Below, in pieces: positions 16,732 through 32,097 of a stretch of 32,559 nucleotides of DNA. Made by a program: the position numbers and the translations under genes. Every line of letters starts with the position of its first letter. Position 1 is the stretch's first letter. The notes below the pieces were generated by a model. The model had not been told where the DNA came from. It saw only the letters and a list, made by a program, of their open reading frames with translations, and searched no databases. The stretch is from Deltaproteobacteria bacterium (GTDB taxonomy: Bacteria; Desulfobacterota; Binatia; DP-6), in assembly GCA_005879795.1 (NCBI GenBank), contig VBKJ01000148.1, positions 1 through 32,559 of the forward strand, read 5' to 3'.

Positions 16732-18240
16732 ATGGCCGACGAAACCGAGAGCCGCGCGCTCCGTACCCTCGCCGACATCGTCGAATCGGGGCGACCGCTG
16801 GCATACATTCATTCCGCGGAAGAGCAGCGCGTGATGGCGCTGCTGCGCGACACCGCAGGCGCATGTTTCTCGGCGGCGGTCCCGCTCTGGATATGGAGCC
16901 TCACCGAGGGCATGCGCCGCGACGATGGTAGCGGCGGCGAGCTGCTCAGCCCGCGTGCGGCTCTCGATTTCGTCGCCACGTACGATGGCCCGGCGCTCTT
17001 TCTCTTCAAGGACTTCCACGAACCGCTGCGCGAGGCGCCGGACATCCGGCGGCGACTGCGCGACCTGTACGAGCTCTGCCTTGACCGTGGCAAGTTTGTG
17101 ATGATCTGCTCGCCGGTCAAGTTCATCCCCGAGGAGCTCGCGCGCAGCATCGTCTACGTAGAGCTGGCAGTTCCCGATCTGCGCGAGCTCGTCGGGTTTC
17201 TGCGGCACGAGGCCGCGGCGATCACGGCAACCGGCGGCCGCCTCGATGCCGACGAGGCTACTCTCCTCCAGCTCGCACGGGCGCTCCAGGGCCTGACGCT
17301 CGACGAGGCGCGCCATGCGATTCGCCGCGCGCTGAGCTCGCGCAAGGTCTTGGATCAGGAATCGGTTCCCGTGCTGCTCGAAGAGAAACGCCTGCTGGTG
17401 AATCGCACCGGGATGATCGAGTACATCCCCGCCGAGACCAGCATCGAACACGTCGGCGGACTGGAGATCATGAAGAAATGGCTGATGGAGCGGCGCAAGT
17501 TATTCCAGATGCGGGACCGCATCAGCGCCGAGATCGTGCCCAAAGGAGTACTGGTCATGGGTGTCTCGGGCTGTGGCAAGAGTCTGTCCATCAAGGCAGT
17601 CGCGTCCTGTTTCGAGCTGCCCCTTTATCGCATCGATATGATTGCCATCTTCTCCGGACGTCACGGAACACCGGAAAGCGCGTTCGCGCAGGCCTGCCAT
17701 ATGCTTGAGTCGATGGCTCCGGCAGTGGTCTGGTTCGACGAGATCGAGGCTGGCATCAACACGCAAGCCAAGGAAGGCGAGTTGGCTCGCATATTCGGCT
17801 TCTTCTTGACGTGGATGCAGGAGAAGACACGCGGACTGTTCGTGGGCGCCACCGCCAACCGCATAGACCTCCTGCCCGCCGAGATGATCCGCAAAGGGCG
17901 CTTCGACGAAGTGTTCTTCGTCGATCTGCCCCTCGAAGACGAGCGGCTCGACATCTTCCGAGTGCATCTGCGGCGGCGCGGGGTCGATTTTGAGGGGTTC
18001 AATTTCGAGCCGCTCAAGACCTTCACGAAAGGCTGGACAGGCGCCGAGATCGAGCAGTGCGTGGTGTCGGCACTGACAAGCGCCCGTCTCGAGGAGCGCG
18101 GATTGACGGATGCGGATCTGTTCAATGCGACCGCCAACGTCGTGCCGCTCTCGAAGACCATGAAGGAACAGGTCGATCAGATCCGGAAATGGGCCTTCGC
18201 CCGCGCGGTGCGGGCCTCGCCGCGTGAACGCTATTCATAG
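16732..18240 (+). CDS. Ycf46-like AAA ATPase
   Basis: A 502-residue cytosolic AAA+ protein. Residues 1-250 form the Ycf46-type N-terminal region (GPALFLFKDFHEPL, CSPVKFIPEEL, ELAVPDLRELVGFL). The AAA module carries Walker A GVSGCGKS at about residue 277, Walker B VVWFDEIEAG at about 332, sensor-1 GATANRIDLLP, and the arginine-finger region RKGRFDEVFFVDLP, the last being characteristic of Ycf46. Members occur in cyanobacteria, plastids and scattered bacteria; roles in inorganic carbon use have been proposed in cyanobacteria, but biochemical function is unsettled. ATG 16732 fits the family length. Codon use looks less GC-rich than the arg/dap genes, consistent with transfer. No partner is encoded next to it. 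Confidence 0.88.
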   Translation: MADETESRALRTLADIVESGRPLAYIHSAEEQRVMALLRDTAGACFSAAVPLWIWSLTEGMRRDDGSGGELLSPRAALDFVATYDGPALFLFKDFHEPLREAPDIRRRLRDLYELCLDRGKFVMICSPVKFIPEELARSIVYVELAVPDLRELVGFLRHEAAAITATGGRLDADEATLLQLARALQGLTLDEARHAIRRALSSRKVLDQESVPVLLEEKRLLVNRTGMIEYIPAETSIEHVGGLEIMKKWLMERRKLFQMRDRISAEIVPKGVLVMGVSGCGKSLSIKAVASCFELPLYRIDMIAIFSGRHGTPESAFAQACHMLESMAPAVVWFDEIEAGINTQAKEGELARIFGFFLTWMQEKTRGLFVGATANRIDLLPAEMIRKGRFDEVFFVDLPLEDERLDIFRVHLRRRGVDFEGFNFEPLKTFTKGWTGAEIEQCVVSALTSARLEERGLTDADLFNATANVVPLSKTMKEQVDQIRKWAFARAVRASPRERYS

Positions 18241-25399: not shown

Positions 25400-25855
25400 T
25401 CAGCCGGGGATGTGCACCAGCTCGAGCTTGATGCCGTCGGGGTCGGCGAAGAAGACCGCATAGTAGCCGGGGACGTACTCGGGGTACTCGCGCGGCGGAT
25501 CGAGGATCGTGCCGCCCCATGCCGTGACGTCCCTTGCCAGCGCGTCGACCTGCACGCGGCTCTCGGCGCGGAACGCGACCTCGCAGAGACCCACGCGGTC
25601 CTTCGAGAAGGTGTCGCCGCGGAAGCGCGGGTCCGCCTGCTTCAGCCAGATGCTGCCGCCCGGGCCGAGGAACCCGAGCACGGCCCCGGCGTCGCACAGG
25701 CCGGGGTAGCCGAGACGCGGCATGAGCGCGTCGTAGAACGACCGCGACCGCCGCAGGTCGTTGACGGTCAGGAAGACATGGTGCACGCCGCCGGTCGCCG
25801 GGACCGGGGTCGTCGTGGGCGGACAGCCACAGCCACCTGGTGTCTCGCTCGCCAT
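25400..25855 (-). CDS. VOC (glyoxalase/dioxygenase) superfamily protein
   Basis: A 151-residue cytosolic protein of the vicinal oxygen chelate fold. It begins with a Thr/Pro-rich leader, then GVHHVFLTVNDLRRSRSFYD with the first metal-type His, and ends with AVFFADPDGIKLELVHIPG with the distal Glu, the typical paired beta-alpha-beta-beta-beta layout. Such proteins include glyoxalase I, ring-cleaving dioxygenases and antibiotic-binding proteins; the substrate cannot be told from sequence. It lies 96 bases before the SDR gene on the same strand and is divergent from dinB. Confidence 0.85.
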   Translation of the reverse strand: MASETPGGCGCPPTTTPVPATGGVHHVFLTVNDLRRSRSFYDALMPRLGYPGLCDAGAVLGFLGPGGSIWLKQADPRFRGDTFSKDRVGLCEVAFRAESRVQVDALARDVTAWGGTILDPPREYPEYVPGYYAVFFADPDGIKLELVHIPG

Positions 25856-25932
25856 CGCCGGCTACCATACGGGCGCCGCGCGGCTCAGTCGAGTACGTTG
25901 CGGGTCCGGTGCCGACGGGCTATCGCCAGGGC

Positions 25933-27144
25933 GTGCCGGTCATCCTCCACGCCGACATGGACGCGTTCTACGCGGCGGTCGAGCAGCGCGACCGTCCCGA
26001 GCTGCGCGGGCGGCCGGTCATCGTCGGCGGGACGTCGAGCCGCGGCGTGGTGACGGCCGCCTCCTACGAGGCGCGCCGCTTCGGCGTCCGCTCGGCCATG
26101 CCGACGGTCCAGGCGCGCGCGCTCTGCCCCGCCGCCGTCTTCCTGCGCGGCGACATGGCCAAGTACCGGCGCGTCAGCGCACAGCTGCGGGCCATCTTCA
26201 CGACCATCAGCCCCGACGTGGAGCCGCTCTCGCTCGACGAGGCGTTCATCGACATCACCGCCTCGCAGCGCCTGCTCGGCCCGCCGCTCGCGATCGGCCG
26301 GCTGCTCAGGGATCGCGTGCGCGCCGCGACCGCACTCGCCGTCTCGGTCGGGATCGGGCCGGGCAAGATGGTCGCGAAGATCGCGAGCGACCTCGCGAAG
26401 CCCGACGGGCTCCTCGAGGTGCCGGCCGACCGGGTCGCCGCGTTCCTGCACCCGCTGCCGGCGTGGCGCCTGTGGGGCGTCGGCCCGGTCACCGAGGCCG
26501 CGCTCGCCCGCGCCGGGATCACGACCATCGGCCAGCTCGCGGCGCGGCCGGCGGCCGAGCTCGCGCCGTTCGTCGGGGGAGCCGCTGCCGATCACCTCGT
26601 CCGGCTGGCCCACGGGGAGGACGCACGCATCGTCGAGCCGGACCTCGCGGCCAAGTCCTACGGCGAGGAGGGCACGTTCGCGGCCGACGCGCGGGATGAC
26701 CGCAGCGTGCGCGAGGCGATCATCGGCCACGCCGACGCCATAGGGCGCCGTCTGCGCCGCGACCGCGTGCGGAGTCGCGTCGTGGTGCTGAAGCTCAAGC
26801 TCGCCGAGCGCCTCGGCCCGGGCAAGTTCCGCCTCCTCACCCGGCGCGCGACGCTCCCCGAGCCGACCGACGACGGGAAGACGATCTCCGATGCGGCGCT
26901 GCGGCTCTGGGAGCGGCACCGGCCGCGGCTGCCGGTCCGGCTGGTCGGCGTGTCGGCGGCCGGCATCGTCGGCGACGCGTCCGAGCAGTTCGCCCTCTTC
27001 GCCGCGGACGCCCACCGCCGGCGCGCGGCGCTCAACCAGGCGCTCGACGCCATCGTCGCGCGCTTCGGCATGGAGAGCATCGCGCGGGGCGGCGCCGGTC
27101 GCAGCGAGAAGGGGCTCACGACGCGCCTCAAGCGCGGCGAGTAG
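25933..27144 (+). CDS. dinB: DNA polymerase IV (Y-family)
   Basis: A 403-residue translesion DNA polymerase. The metal-binding carboxylates are in ILHADMDAFYAAVEQ and PLSLDEAFIDIT; VSVGIGPGKMVAKIASD and KPDGL mark the palm; LWGVGPVTE is the thumb helix-hairpin-helix. The little-finger domain follows. EQFALF near the C-terminus resembles a beta-clamp binding motif. GTG 25933 gives the family's normal N-terminus (VPVILHADMD); GTG 25909 in frame would add 8 residues. No LexA-type operator was recognised upstream. It is divergent from the VOC gene. Confidence 0.95.
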   Translation: MPVILHADMDAFYAAVEQRDRPELRGRPVIVGGTSSRGVVTAASYEARRFGVRSAMPTVQARALCPAAVFLRGDMAKYRRVSAQLRAIFTTISPDVEPLSLDEAFIDITASQRLLGPPLAIGRLLRDRVRAATALAVSVGIGPGKMVAKIASDLAKPDGLLEVPADRVAAFLHPLPAWRLWGVGPVTEAALARAGITTIGQLAARPAAELAPFVGGAAADHLVRLAHGEDARIVEPDLAAKSYGEEGTFAADARDDRSVREAIIGHADAIGRRLRRDRVRSRVVVLKLKLAERLGPGKFRLLTRRATLPEPTDDGKTISDAALRLWERHRPRLPVRLVGVSAAGIVGDASEQFALFAADAHRRRAALNQALDAIVARFGMESIARGGAGRSEKGLTTRLKRGE

Positions 27145-27913: not shown

Positions 27914-28268
27914 GCACATCATCCAGCCCACGCGCATCGTCGCCGCGGGCAAGCCGCCGAAGCAGATCGACGAGTACGTCGGCCGCGCGAGCGCGAAGAC
28001 GGCCGCCGTGAGCGTCGCGCACATGCGGAGCCCCGCCGGCTGGGTCGAGCCCGGGCAGACACCCGAGTTCGACGAGTACACGGTCGTGCTGAAGGGCCTG
28101 CTCCGCGTGAAGCACGCCGGCGGGACGATCGACGTACGTGCGGGACAGGCCGTCATCGCACGCCGCGGCGAGTGGGTGCAGTACAGCTCGCCCGAGCCGG
28201 AGGGCGCCGAGTACGTCGCGGTGTGCGTGCCGGCGTTCTCGCCGGAGACGGTGCACCGGGACGGCTAG
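27906..28268 (+). CDS. Small cupin-domain protein
   Basis: A 120-residue single-domain cupin. The fold is indicated by EFDEYTVVLKGLLRVKHAGG, IDVRAGQAVIARRGEWVQYS and EYVAVCVPAFSPETVHRD, matching the beta strands and turn glycines of cupin_2-type proteins. The classical metal-binding histidines of the first motif (HxHxxxE) are replaced (EFDEYTVV), so metal binding is doubtful. ATG 27906 overlaps the miaE stop region. The function is unknown; the overlap suggests expression with miaE. Confidence 0.82.
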   Translation: MPEHIIQPTRIVAAGKPPKQIDEYVGRASAKTAAVSVAHMRSPAGWVEPGQTPEFDEYTVVLKGLLRVKHAGGTIDVRAGQAVIARRGEWVQYSSPEPEGAEYVAVCVPAFSPETVHRDG

Positions 28269-28269
28269 G

Positions 28270-28419
28270 GTGTCGACCGAGGACCTGGCTCGCACCGGCA
28301 TGCCGGTCGCCATCGCAGCCAAAGTGACCACCCGGATCGGCGGGTCGCCTGCGCCGCGGGCCGCGGACGCCGAGAAGAAGCGGGTACAGATGCCCTACTA
28401 CCGCGACCTCGAAGGTTGA
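28270..28419 (+). CDS. Small open frame (49 aa), unknown
   Basis: GTG 28270 starts 1 base after the cupin stop. It encodes 49 residues, alkaline in the C-terminal half, ending EKKRVQMPYYRDLEG. No family is recognised. Its direct continuation from the cupin stop and the non-random end hint at a real small protein, but there is no clear ribosome-binding site. It may equally be random open frame in GC-rich DNA. Confidence 0.3.
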   Translation: MSTEDLARTGMPVAIAAKVTTRIGGSPAPRAADAEKKRVQMPYYRDLEG

Positions 28420-28483
28420 GCGCGAGCACCGCGTCACCGCCTCGGCGCGACAACGCGATTGACGGCGAGCCGAGGCCTCTACT

Positions 28484-28900
28484 ATGGTTGGAGCGCACGG
28501 CGGTCGCATGGTGGAAATCGTGCCTCCCAACGCTCTCGAGAGCCGGCGGCGCGTCCGTACCGTGCGGTGGCCGATGGGGCCGCTCTTGGGCTCATGCCTT
28601 TCCTTGAGCCTGTCGCTGTCTGGGATCGGTGCGGGCGTCGCGGAGGCGATCCACATCTCCACCGCAGAATCGGTCGTCTTCGTCTGCCGCCGCGACCCAC
28701 CCGAGGTGCTCAATTCGAGCAGCAGCGCGGGCGCGCCCGTCGTGACCGCGGGGACTGCCTGCGCTCAGGCGCTCGCCGACGCTCTGGTTGCGGGCTTCCG
28801 CCTCCAATCCGTGATCGCTTCGTTCGCTAGCGGAGATATCGCGTTCCCGCGTTACACCCTGATTAGGGTGCCCAACGCAGAGGATGATGGAGCCGGTTAG
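28484..28900 (+). CDS. Secreted seven-repeat cysteine protein, N-terminal part before in-frame TAG
   Basis: ATG 28484 (also ATG 28508 and 28574 in frame) leads to a signal peptide, MGPLLGSCLSLSLSLSGIGA, then the first copy of a repeat: VVFVC, SSSSAGAPVV, CAQALADALVAGFRL and YTLIRVP. The frame meets TAG at 28898-28900 and then continues without shift for 443 codons that hold six more copies. The part alone is 138 residues and would be a single-repeat exported protein. The shorter start at 28574 gives the most typical signal peptide. The family is not recognised. Confidence 0.7.
   Translation: MVGAHGGRMVEIVPPNALESRRRVRTVRWPMGPLLGSCLSLSLSLSGIGAGVAEAIHISTAESVVFVCRRDPPEVLNSSSSAGAPVVTAGTACAQALADALVAGFRLQSVIASFASGDIAFPRYTLIRVPNAEDDGAG
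28898..28900 (+). other. In-frame amber codon interrupting the repeat protein
   Basis: TAG lies at the junction between repeats 1 and 2 (G-TAG-A-A-I-I-F). In repeats 3 and 5 the same position is a CAG glutamine codon (GQKAV and QQAAI), so the TAG is one C-to-T change from a plausible ancestor. The reading frame is otherwise intact on both sides. It may be a recent nonsense mutation, an assembly error, or a readthrough site. Confidence 0.85.
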
Positions 28901-28930
28901 GCCGCGATCATCTTCTCCTGCGACCTCTCT

Positions 28931-30232
28931 TTGAAGACTTCCATCGCCAGCAACAGCTCGGGTGCGCCCGTCGTGACCGCCGGGACTCCCTGCGCCCAGG
29001 CTCTCGCGGATGCCATGGTCGCTGGCTTCAGCCTGGAATCGGTCATCCGTGCATTTCAAAATCTGGATTTGAACAATGGGAACCGCGTCACTGGCGGCGT
29101 CCCGACCTACACCCTCGTCAGGACGCCAACGGGAAGGTGCCCTGCGTGCGGCGAGAACGCGGTTGTCTTGACCTGCGGCCAAGACCCGCACGGCCCGCTC
29201 CTCGGCTCGAGCAGCAGCGCGGGGGCGCCCGTGGTGGGTGCCGGCGTCCGCTGCGCTCAGGCGCTCGCAGACGTTCTCGGCGCGGGCTTCCGTCTCGAGT
29301 CTGTCATCCCGGCATTCACGTCAGGGTTCCCGACCTACACCTTGATCGAGCGGCCGGGTGCAATGCGGGACGCGTTCGGTCAGAAGGCGGTCATCTTCAC
29401 CTGCGGGCGGCAGGGGCTCGAGGTGCTCGGGGGTTCCGACAGCAGCACGGGTGCGCCCGTGGTCGCCGACGGAGCCCCGTGCGCTCAGACGCTCGCACAT
29501 CTCCTCGCTGCCGGTCTGCGCGTCGTTTCTGCGATCCCGACAAGTGTCTCGAATCTTCCAACCTACACCATGGTCACAGAGCCGGGCGGGAACCCGGAGA
29601 CCTCTCACGCGGAAGCGGTCATCTTCGTCTGCCTCGGCGGCGGTGGATTCGACGTGCTCAGTTCGAGCAGCAGTATGGGGGCGCCGGTTGTGGCTGCGGG
29701 AGTTCCCTGCGGGCAGGCGCTCGCGGACGGTCTCGATGCGGGTTTCAGGATCGAGTCCATCATCCCAGGATTCGCCTCGAACGCCTCGCACGAGCTGATC
29801 TACACCTTGATCAAGCCAAGGAGAAGGAGCGACACCTCCGATCAGCAGGCTGCCATTTTCGCCTGCGACGCATCCAACGTCGTCGCTTCGGGTAGCAGCA
29901 CAGGCGCGCCTCCCGTCGCTGGTAAGTCCTGCGCTCAGGCGCTCGCGGACGTCCTCACTGAGTGCTTCGACGTCGCGGCGATCCTCCCCGGTTTGGGCTT
30001 CCCGACCTACACCCTGGTGAAGCGGCCCGCGGGAAGGTGTCGTCGACCGGGTCGCGAGGCGGTCATCACGTGCGGGGGCTTTTCGAGCAGCAGCGCAGGT
30101 GCGCCGGTCGTGGCTGCCGGCACGCCCTGTGCCCAGGCCTTGGCGGACGTTCTGAGCGCGGGCTTCAGGATAGAGCCCACGGAACCGCTCTTCAGCGGGA
30201 GTCTCCCGTATACGTTGACCGGCAAGCCGTAG
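28931..30232 (+). CDS. Secreted seven-repeat cysteine protein, main part after in-frame TAG (six repeats)
   Basis: The frame is the same as in the upstream part and is really open from 28901; TTG 28931 is only the first possible start codon and has no ribosome-binding site, so independent translation is unlikely. About 434 residues hold six copies of a unit of 66-87 residues. The core is SSSSxGAPVVxAG, CAQALADxL, AGFRxESVIPxF, PTYTLIxxP and then AVIFxC. Each unit has two near-invariant cysteines (in VIFxC and CAQALAD), which suggests one disulfide per unit outside the cytoplasm. Key Cys codons fall at 28760, 28991, 29252, 29480, 29708, 29930 and 30128, all spaced by multiples of three. No C-terminal anchor is seen. 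The fold and function are unknown. Confidence 0.72.
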   Translation: MKTSIASNSSGAPVVTAGTPCAQALADAMVAGFSLESVIRAFQNLDLNNGNRVTGGVPTYTLVRTPTGRCPACGENAVVLTCGQDPHGPLLGSSSSAGAPVVGAGVRCAQALADVLGAGFRLESVIPAFTSGFPTYTLIERPGAMRDAFGQKAVIFTCGRQGLEVLGGSDSSTGAPVVADGAPCAQTLAHLLAAGLRVVSAIPTSVSNLPTYTMVTEPGGNPETSHAEAVIFVCLGGGGFDVLSSSSSMGAPVVAAGVPCGQALADGLDAGFRIESIIPGFASNASHELIYTLIKPRRRSDTSDQQAAIFACDASNVVASGSSTGAPPVAGKSCAQALADVLTECFDVAAILPGLGFPTYTLVKRPAGRCRRPGREAVITCGGFSSSSAGAPVVAAGTPCAQALADVLSAGFRIEPTEPLFSGSLPYTLTGKP

Positions 30233-30430
30233 GGGACGGGCCCGACTCCTCGAAGACTCTCGTACGATTGGGAGATCGTCCTCGACGGCATGCGCCTGAC
30301 ATTCAACGGGACGCCCGACGGAGGCCCAGATCAACAACGCCGCCGAGGTCGCATGGGCCGCCAGTTACGTCCGCTCTCCCCTGGCATCTCCGGCGGCGCT
30401 GAGCCGTTCCGAGCGCCCGCGCCGCGTGGG

Positions 30431-30961
30431 TCACACCGCCGGCCGCACCGACGCGCTCGTCATCTGCCGATAGCGCCATACGATGGCCTTGCCGTACGCC
30501 ATCGTGCGCGGGCCGTGCATCGCGAGGTTCGGGCCGCCGTGGTAGAGCCGCGCCGCCGCCTCCACGTTGCCGTGCGTCCGCCGGAGCGCATCGCGGTAAT
30601 AGAACGCCCCCATGAGGAGGTTGTCGAGCGCGCTCCGCGCGTTGACGGGGCGGCCGAGCAGCCGCGCCGCTTCACGCGCGTACTGGCGAATCGCGACGGG
30701 CATCAGCTGGGTCAGGCCGACGGCTCCGGCTTCGCTGACCGCGTTCGGATTGCCACTCGATTCCTGCATGACCACGGCGCGGAGCAACGCCGGGTCGATA
30801 CCGACGAGGCGGCCTACGGCGTTCATCTCTCGGGCGAAGGGTTGGCCGTGCGACACACTCCTGATCACGCGGGCATCGGCGAACATCTCGCCCGCATGCG
30901 CCGGCAGCACACCGGAGAGCAGGAGCGCGAGCATCAGCGACCTGCCTAGGCGTTTGAGCAT
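30431..30961 (-). CDS. Lytic transglycosylase (SLT domain)
   Basis: The 176-residue exported protein has a signal peptide (MLKRLGRSLMLALLLSGVLPAHA) from ATG 30961; in-frame ATGs at 31015 and 31045 would add a basic extension without homology. The goose-lysozyme-like SLT domain is shown by VVMQESSGNPNAVSEAGAVG with the catalytic Glu, LTQLMP, and RLYHGGPNLAM near the end. It would cleave peptidoglycan glycan strands in the periplasm. It lies between the repeat protein and the RlpA-like lipoprotein gene, on the opposite strand from both. Confidence 0.88.
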   Translation of the reverse strand: MLKRLGRSLMLALLLSGVLPAHAGEMFADARVIRSVSHGQPFAREMNAVGRLVGIDPALLRAVVMQESSGNPNAVSEAGAVGLTQLMPVAIRQYAREAARLLGRPVNARSALDNLLMGAFYYRDALRRTHGNVEAAARLYHGGPNLAMHGPRTMAYGKAIVWRYRQMTSASVRPAV

Positions 30962-31346
30962 GCCGCCCAGAGCAGCCCTCGTGCCGAAGCGGTAATTCCG
31001 GGATCGGCCCGTCATTCGGCGGCCACCCCGTGCCGTGCGCGCCACGTGCCCGTGCCCGTCCTGGCACGCGAGTGCTGAGTGCCACAGGGCGACCTACGCC
31101 CGATCCGCCTGCGAAAGCCCGCGACGTCGGCAGACAGCGCGCTGCAGCCGAGTCCCTACGGAACGAGAGGAGGTGCGCGCCCCAGCCCGCGGGTACACGG
31201 AGGCGGATCGCGCGCTGAGATGAACGACCAGCGTTGGGTGGCCGCAGGCGGCGGCTGGGGTCGCCGGGGTCCCGAGCCGCAGCCCGTTCCACGGCCCTCA
31301 AGAACCCGTAGCGGTCTGCCGAAGTACCGCGTGAGGGAGAGCAAGC
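30962..31346. other. Gene-free stretch
   Basis: About 385 bases upstream of the transglycosylase gene on one side and of a possible small lipoprotein on the other. Several open frames cross it on both strands, but none has motifs, a ribosome-binding site or biased third positions that I can support. It probably holds promoters for the flanking genes; no clear box pair was found. Confidence 0.4.
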
Positions 31347-31538
31347 ATGCGCGAGCTCGTCGTGGTGGGTATCGCTCGTACGGTTCTCGTCGGGTGCGCG
31401 GGTCGGACCAAGCCCGGCGCCCCGTATGACGAGTTCTGCACACCTACGCTGCGGGCCGCGATGGCGCGAGCGTGGGAGACGAGTGACGCGAGCTCGGGTT
31501 GCAGATGGCGGCTCATCGTGATTGGCCCCTCTGCATGA
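31347..31538 (+). CDS. Possible small lipoprotein (63 aa)
   Basis: ATG 31347 is preceded by GGGAGAG at a good distance. The start MRELVVVGIARTVLVGC resembles a lipoprotein signal with lipobox LVGC, though the hydrophobic core is broken by an Arg. The remaining residues (GRTKPGAPYDEFCTPTLRAA) show no family. It stands alone 59 bases before the RlpA-like gene. Confidence 0.35.
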   Translation: MRELVVVGIARTVLVGCAGRTKPGAPYDEFCTPTLRAAMARAWETSDASSGCRWRLIVIGPSA

Positions 31539-31596
31539 AGCTCAACGGCTGGCGCCGTGTTCGCAGCGGCGAGCGTCATCGGCCGCAGCGCATCCG

Positions 31597-32097
31597 ATGG
31601 CCGATGGTGTAAGAGTGGAGCGCCGTCTTTGCTTGGTCGCCGTTCTCGCGGCGGGTCTTCCAGTAGCGGGCTGCTCGCTCTGGCAGCATCGTCCGCCTAC
31701 TCCGGCGCCGGCTGGAGGAGCGGTCCAAGTCGGGACGGCGTCGTGGTATGGCGCTGAGCTACAAGGAAGCCGGACGGCCAGCGGCGAGCGATTCGACCAG
31801 CGCGCCTTTACCGCCGCCTCGCGCTCGTTCCCCATCGGCACCCGGGTGCGGGTAACGAACCTTGCCAACGGGCGCTCGGTCGTGGTCCGCGTCAACGACC
31901 GTGGGCCGTTCGCGCCCGGTCGCGTGATCGACGTGTCGCGCGCCGCGGCGCAGGTGCTCGGCATGATCGAGCGTGGAACGACGCGTGTGCAGATCGAGTC
32001 GCTCGGGGAGGGTCCGCCCGGGACCGTGACAGACCGCGCACGACCAAAGAAGTCACGACGCCGAGGCGGGCGGACCCGTCGCGCTCCGCAAGGCTAG
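31597..32097 (+). CDS. rlpA: RlpA-like septal ring lipoprotein (double-psi beta barrel)
   Basis: A 166-residue lipoprotein whose leader RRLCLVAVLAAGLPVAGC ends in a VAGC lipobox. The DPBB domain carries GTASWYGAELQGSRTASGER, VRVTNLANGRSVVVRVNDRG and the PGRVIDVSRAAAQVLGM motif of RlpA. In RlpA the AAH histidine after the first strand is catalytic or needed; here it reads FTAASRSFPIG, so Ser replaces His, while the Glu of SGERF and Asp of NDRGPF are kept. It has no SPOR domain and ends in a basic tail. ATG 31597 or GTG 31615 could start it. Peptidoglycan cleavage is uncertain; a binding role is possible. Confidence 0.85.
   Translation: MADGVRVERRLCLVAVLAAGLPVAGCSLWQHRPPTPAPAGGAVQVGTASWYGAELQGSRTASGERFDQRAFTAASRSFPIGTRVRVTNLANGRSVVVRVNDRGPFAPGRVIDVSRAAAQVLGMIERGTTRVQIESLGEGPPGTVTDRARPKKSRRRGGRTRRAPQG

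Follow-up and report, generated by a model that had tools for sequence, protein, structure and literature searches.

An amber codon behind the first domain of a seven-domain array: probably a young or tolerated nonsense allele

An amber codon that splits a long repetitive reading frame may be a nonsense mutation, a point at which ribosomes read on, the ordinary end of a small gene, or an error in the consensus. This question is raised by a locus in the window, by which we mean the whole analysed stretch of 32,559 nucleotides. The frame at 28484-30232 is split by TAG at 28898-28900 with no frame change across it, and the 443 codons behind it (28901-30229) are open up to a second TAG at 30230-30232. 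The original prediction had placed this stop between repeats 1 and 2 of an array with an open frame downstream, and re-reading the frame confirmed both points. Its further statement that the array has seven repeats, of which termination leaves one, agreed with an alignment that places one copy before the TAG and six after it. As set out below, the stop is probably an amber nonsense allele, young or tolerated, within a seven-domain array specific to this lineage.

Layout and coding history of the array

The features of the locus are the following.

28459..28488, plus strand: promoter-like site (TTGACG, spacing 18, TATGGT) from a consensus scan, which is not in itself evidence of function
28484..28900, plus strand: one-domain open reading frame ending in TAG, start uncertain (ATG at 28484, 28508 or 28574)
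28664..28897, plus strand: repeat 1 (R1) with linker
28898..28900, plus strand: in-frame TAG where linker 1 ends
28901..29152, plus strand: repeat 2 (R2)
29153..29383, plus strand: repeat 3 (R3)
29384..29617, plus strand: repeat 4 (R4)
29618..29851, plus strand: repeat 5 (R5)
29852..30055, plus strand: repeat 6 (R6)
30056..30229, plus strand: repeat 7 (R7), which stops soon past the YTL strand, as do the related loci L041 and L043
30230..30232, plus strand: TAG terminating the array

The consensus scan covered 28260-30500 and gave a single promoter-like site, located before R1, where 0.2 were expected in shuffled sequences. By eye, the N-terminus of the array protein is probably signal-peptide-like, which would make it a secreted protein. 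Within the first half, hydrophobicity over 16 residues peaks in a stretch that begins at residue 38, and the highest such stretch of the whole array sits within the later repeats, so hydrophobicity by itself does not pick out a signal peptide. The window also encodes an AAA ATPase (16732-18237), an IMS-type polymerase (25840-27141), an SLT transglycosylase (30431-31045) and a DPBB lytic transglycosylase (31522-32094).

The seven aligned domain copies measure 58-84 residues each with linker. Two conserved cysteines are kept in every copy, and R2 and R6 each have two extra ones. The residue aligned with the TAG was found by eye, by counting back seven positions from the first conserved cysteine. 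It is Gln, encoded by CAG, in R4 and R6, in agreement with the CAG that the original prediction noted for two other repeats. R1 and R5 have Ala at this place and R3 has Glu; R7 has Gly or Arg, a gap leaving its assignment uncertain.

Since one base decides between a stop and a sense codon here, and the codons after the TAG are intact, the stop could be a consensus error or a minor-allele artefact; the main allele of the organism would then carry a sense codon at 28898, and all seven domains would be translated as one protein. The sequence is indeed one consensus of a 280-contig assembly. However, repeat collapse during assembly is improbable with repeats that are just 52-67% identical in DNA, and the rest of the array is unbroken. 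We consider such an error unlikely, though it ranks first among the alternatives.

The copies on both sides of the stop look like coding sequence. Over 51 gap-free codon columns, the repeats differed pairwise at rates of 0.303 for codon position 1, 0.219 for position 2 and 0.475 for position 3, and with R2-R7 alone these rates were 0.305, 0.239 and 0.501. Values of dN/dS were finite in 20 of 21 repeat pairs, R4-R7 being saturated, and ranged from 0.24 to 1.0; they are rough because dS is high (0.54-1.75). The codon score was higher in frame than in the other two forward frames for all seven repeats, and not always higher than in the best antisense frame, so that the forward and antisense frames were told apart by the codon-position mismatch and by relatives rather than by codon score alone. 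The excess of mismatches at position 3, the dN/dS values, the in-frame codon scores and the presence of the domain in the same frame in relatives together indicate, at the level of sequence, that repeats 1-7 have one common coding history, including those past the TAG. One coding unit thus lies in one frame on both sides of the stop, as in a nonsense-interrupted gene.

The part behind the stop showed no clear extra decay relative to the part in front of it, which is a point against the nonsense interpretation. GC3 was 0.76 in R1 and 0.79 in R2-R7, the codon scores were 0.03 and −0.04, and all six downstream copies keep both cysteines. Departures from strong consensus positions numbered 1 of 28 in R1, 7 of 29 in R4 and 8 of 32 in R6; the excess in R4 and R6 may reflect old divergence or relaxation. 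For comparison, the genome median of the codon score is 0.56 (80-codon windows) and two neighbouring genes score 0.37 and 0.52. Because R1 and R2-R7 both fall well under the genome score, the unusual codon use belongs to the whole array and not just to the part after the TAG. GC3 across 28652-30229 (0.76-0.79) is likewise atypical for the genome when set against the 0.93-0.95 of the neighbouring cupin and IMS-type polymerase genes.

Reading of the TAG codon

The intact downstream frame had been taken by the original prediction to mean that the stop is either recent or read through. The intactness itself is real, but it supports that conclusion only weakly, because few single substitutions make stops. 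In the 443 codons the stop-creating share of single substitutions is 1.6-2.2%. Without selection, one further stop would be expected only at about 3.5-4.8% neutral divergence, and the absence of a second stop fits a neutral divergence of up to 10-14%; these estimates leave out insertions and deletions, which would tighten the bound. Many ordinary nonsense mutations would leave an equally intact frame behind them.

A search of the genome for amber suppressor or pyrrolysine tRNA genes had been proposed, and it came back negative. In the assembly of this organism (280 contigs totalling 4.1 Mb, with an estimated completeness of 99.56%) Rfam RF00005 located 36 tRNA genes. ARAGORN read an anticodon for every one of them and CTA was not among these, in a scan that would miss near-cognate decoding by ordinary tRNAs or an unusual tRNA that the Rfam model does not recognise. 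The best match to PylS (TIGR02367) reached 22.1 bits against a cut-off of 178.15, and matches below the cut-off were also seen in controls, where 13 of 14 genomes matched and one exceeded it. The amber release factor RF1 was found above cut-off at C82:5-883 (model positions 65-357), with a second piece at C139:4-297 (positions 3-100). Both pieces lie at contig ends and probably belong to one gene split by the assembly. Selenocysteine uses TGA, and decoding as selenocysteine was set aside since TAG is the wrong codon.

Stop codon use was sampled over 432,559 bases, made up of the window and 20 stretches of 20 kb each. Coding-like segments (n = 328) ended in TGA 213 times, in TAG 99 times and in TAA 16 times. 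Coding neighbours in the same frame and parted by one stop (n = 39) were separated by TAG in 21 cases, TGA in 16 and TAA in 2, so that TAG is over-represented in such pairs relative to TGA (21/99 vs 16/213, Fisher p = 0.001). Taken alone this excess would favour readthrough, but perhaps it is most simply explained by TGA ends sitting in out-of-frame ATGA overlaps. A Pfam domain crossing the TAG was found in none of the 20 pairs scanned (out of the 21 TAG pairs), 15 of which contain a domain. Several of the TAG pairs are plainly separate genes, such as a Clp protease followed by a ClpX zinc finger and an FtsX permease ahead of an ABC ATPase. The 120 nucleotides at 28898-29017 fold no better than shuffled sequences (z = 0.72), and so show no stimulatory structure of the sort that some readthrough sites have. 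Because TAG is a frequent coding end, RF1 is present, a CTA tRNA and a PylS above cut-off were not found, and 0 of 20 pairs show a crossing domain, TAG is by these genomic criteria an ordinary stop in this organism; low-level near-cognate misreading remains compatible with the sequence. Ordinary use of TAG speaks against reassignment of the codon, whereas readthrough confined to one site would not require TAG to have lost that use.

These data bear on the possibility that low-level or regulated near-cognate readthrough yields a minor seven-domain product beside the one-domain form. The 443 open codons and the two cysteines conserved in all six downstream copies are in its favour, and Belinky et al. 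2021 (PMC7918605) report dN/dS below 1 for genes bearing in-frame stops. Against it stand the tRNA, PylS, RF1 and stop-use results, the missing crossing domains, the unremarkable RNA structure, and the fact that intactness fits considerable neutral divergence. Readthrough of this kind appears less probable still than a consensus error; these two are the main alternatives, and each is less likely than a nonsense allele. A stronger version, in which readthrough at a low rate is maintained at this TAG, so that near-cognate decoding under the standard code gives one-domain and low-level seven-domain secreted protein, is the least probable reading considered. Systems for pyrrolysine or other amber suppression would also give a full-length product past the TAG; unlike the genomes that have them, this one has no PylS above cut-off, no CTA tRNA that was found, and TAG as a frequent ordinary stop. 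Of the two options in the original prediction the nonsense mutation is therefore retained as the favoured one, whereas the genome gave no support for a system dedicated to readthrough or suppression.

Relatives and predicted fold of the domain

The 443-residue protein matched its own genome only and none of 57 other genomes, none of which is of the same genus. A profile built from the seven repeats of the window alone (A1) was run on 147 other genomes of the class and had matches with E-values up to 0.001 in three of them (L041, 6.8e-8; L042, 3.8e-7; L043, 1.6e-6). With the profile widened by these relatives, a phylum-wide draw of 395 genomes returned our genome and G012 only; the first pass of such profile searches scores limited candidates per genome, so misses are possible. 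Neither the 57 genomes nor the class and phylum-wide profile searches gave an orthologue of the array, and no other multi-copy array was seen in the class and phylum searches, the seven-copy form being seen in its own genome only.

In the three other genomes the domain lies in the same frame behind signal-peptide-like starts. L041 and L043 each have one domain and a TAG two or three residues past a YTL or YTM motif, and in L042 (minus strand, 1030-1863) the single domain leads into a collagen-like stretch of Gly-X-Y repeats and a cysteine-containing tail. In alignment A3 the two cysteines, the P and the YT are conserved in all three loci, as expected for one family of single domains.

Weak matches in the class (E up to 0.05) came from 28 of 148 genomes, our own included, and eight weak loci were inspected. 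In genome G011 two neighbouring genes (L104 and L081; E = 4.3e-4 and 2.4e-4) each have a signal-like start and one probable copy, and both are, judged by their sequences, probably real copies of the domain. In these genes (G011:C9:240229-240635) the YTL strand is followed by a cysteine-bearing strand (AILxC), as though the domain had undergone permutation. The other six loci (L080, L082, L084, L085, L086 and L087) were dropped as chance matches or unclear cases. The one-domain relatives, with L081 and L104 probably among them, share a GAP-like motif, a CAQ-like helix, the YT strand and a signal-peptide-like start with the array, and L041-L043 also share its two cysteines. They differ in having a single domain per gene (with the collagen-like tail in L042) rather than seven copies. 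Since the distant relatives are one-domain proteins and no other array was seen, one domain per gene is, as far as these sequences indicate, the usual form of the family, and the stop at 28898 would give that form plus a linker tail.

The relatives raise the possibility that a complete one-domain gene natively ends at this TAG, with repeats 2-7 as a separate array or gene behind it. L041 and L043 do stop directly after one domain, and G011 has two adjacent one-domain genes. Yet repeats 2-7 lack a separate signal-peptide-like start, and the in-frame start candidates TTG 28931, GTG 28973 and ATG 29015 have no clear ribosome-binding site and would all cut into repeat 2. The TAG comes only where the linker ends, beyond the point at which the domain usually stops, and the reading frame continues across it without any shift. 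On this sequence evidence a gene of their own for repeats 2-7 is unlikely, and we rate separate genes as a whole below the two main alternatives and above the maintained readthrough point.

Database searches with both halves of the array gave no Pfam match and one chance match in NCBIfam (E = 0.085), and a Pfam search with the 10 members of A3 brought up two chance matches (best E = 0.17). The domain had no sequence match among PDB chains, and tblastn found no match in phage and plasmid collections. Pattern searches produced 201 and 180 matches in a genome contig collection and 21 and 35 in a viral contig collection, of which none was confirmed. A 32-residue match in PHROGs (E = 2.2e-5), in which no stretch passed alone, was set aside, together with another at E = 0.36. 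Conservation of the SLT neighbour was tried as a marker of an empty site and discarded as too unspecific, with matches in 18 of 19 genomes (own included) at 29-48% identity in the others.

An AlphaFold2 model of R3 (window 29153-29395), computed with the seven repeats of the window, has the order strand-strand-helix-strand-strand at a mean pLDDT of 68.6. The best Foldseek hit had E = 0.73. In VIA-align the top seven rows were chains of GFRP, the GTP cyclohydrolase I feedback regulatory protein (best Z 7.7, rmsd 2.3, 65 residues aligned), a Z value within the range common for models without a clear match and here obtained with a low-confidence model. GFRP has the same order of strands and helix, but identity is only about 11%, Foldseek E is 0.7 or worse, and sequence matches to PDB chains are lacking. 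The modelled likeness would amount to no more than a shared arrangement; it hints at a fold and says nothing of function.

Origin and meaning of the stop

The position of the codon bears on its origin. In R7, L041 and L043 the usual domain end comes directly after the YTL strand, while the TAG at 28898 is at the far end of the linker. Because of this position, and because R2-R7 are joined without stops, the TAG looks gained after the array was built and not inherited. We suppose that a single small two-cysteine domain of a secreted protein was duplicated in frame to seven copies, and that an amber nonsense mutation then arose where the first linker ends, so that translation stops after domain 1. 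The cell would then most likely make mainly a one-domain secreted form, which matches the usual architecture of the family and is perhaps tolerated. Domains 2-7 would be silent or nearly so, with too little time for decay. In an alternative within the same explanation the TAG is one allele in a population. The stop would accordingly be young or polymorphic, and the short one-domain form may be tolerated.

Published cases resemble this situation. Belinky et al. 2021 (PMC7918605) describe in-frame stops as common in bacterial genes and as tending to be short-lived, on the scale of population polymorphism, and their worked example is TAG/CAG at one position. Like this locus, those cases have a single in-frame stop, TAG against CAG, and coding sequence on both sides. 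The stop in those cases is common to orthologues of several strains, whereas here one genome was available and repeats of one gene were compared. The interrupted array is of this published kind.

The small domain, with no match in Pfam or to the sequences of PDB chains, is a fair target for a family description. If readthrough were shown, the locus would provide a bacterial example of a secreted protein whose domain number is set by a stop codon. An ordinary nonsense allele would be of little consequence beyond annotation, where the two open reading frames should be treated as one stop-interrupted array and not as two genes.
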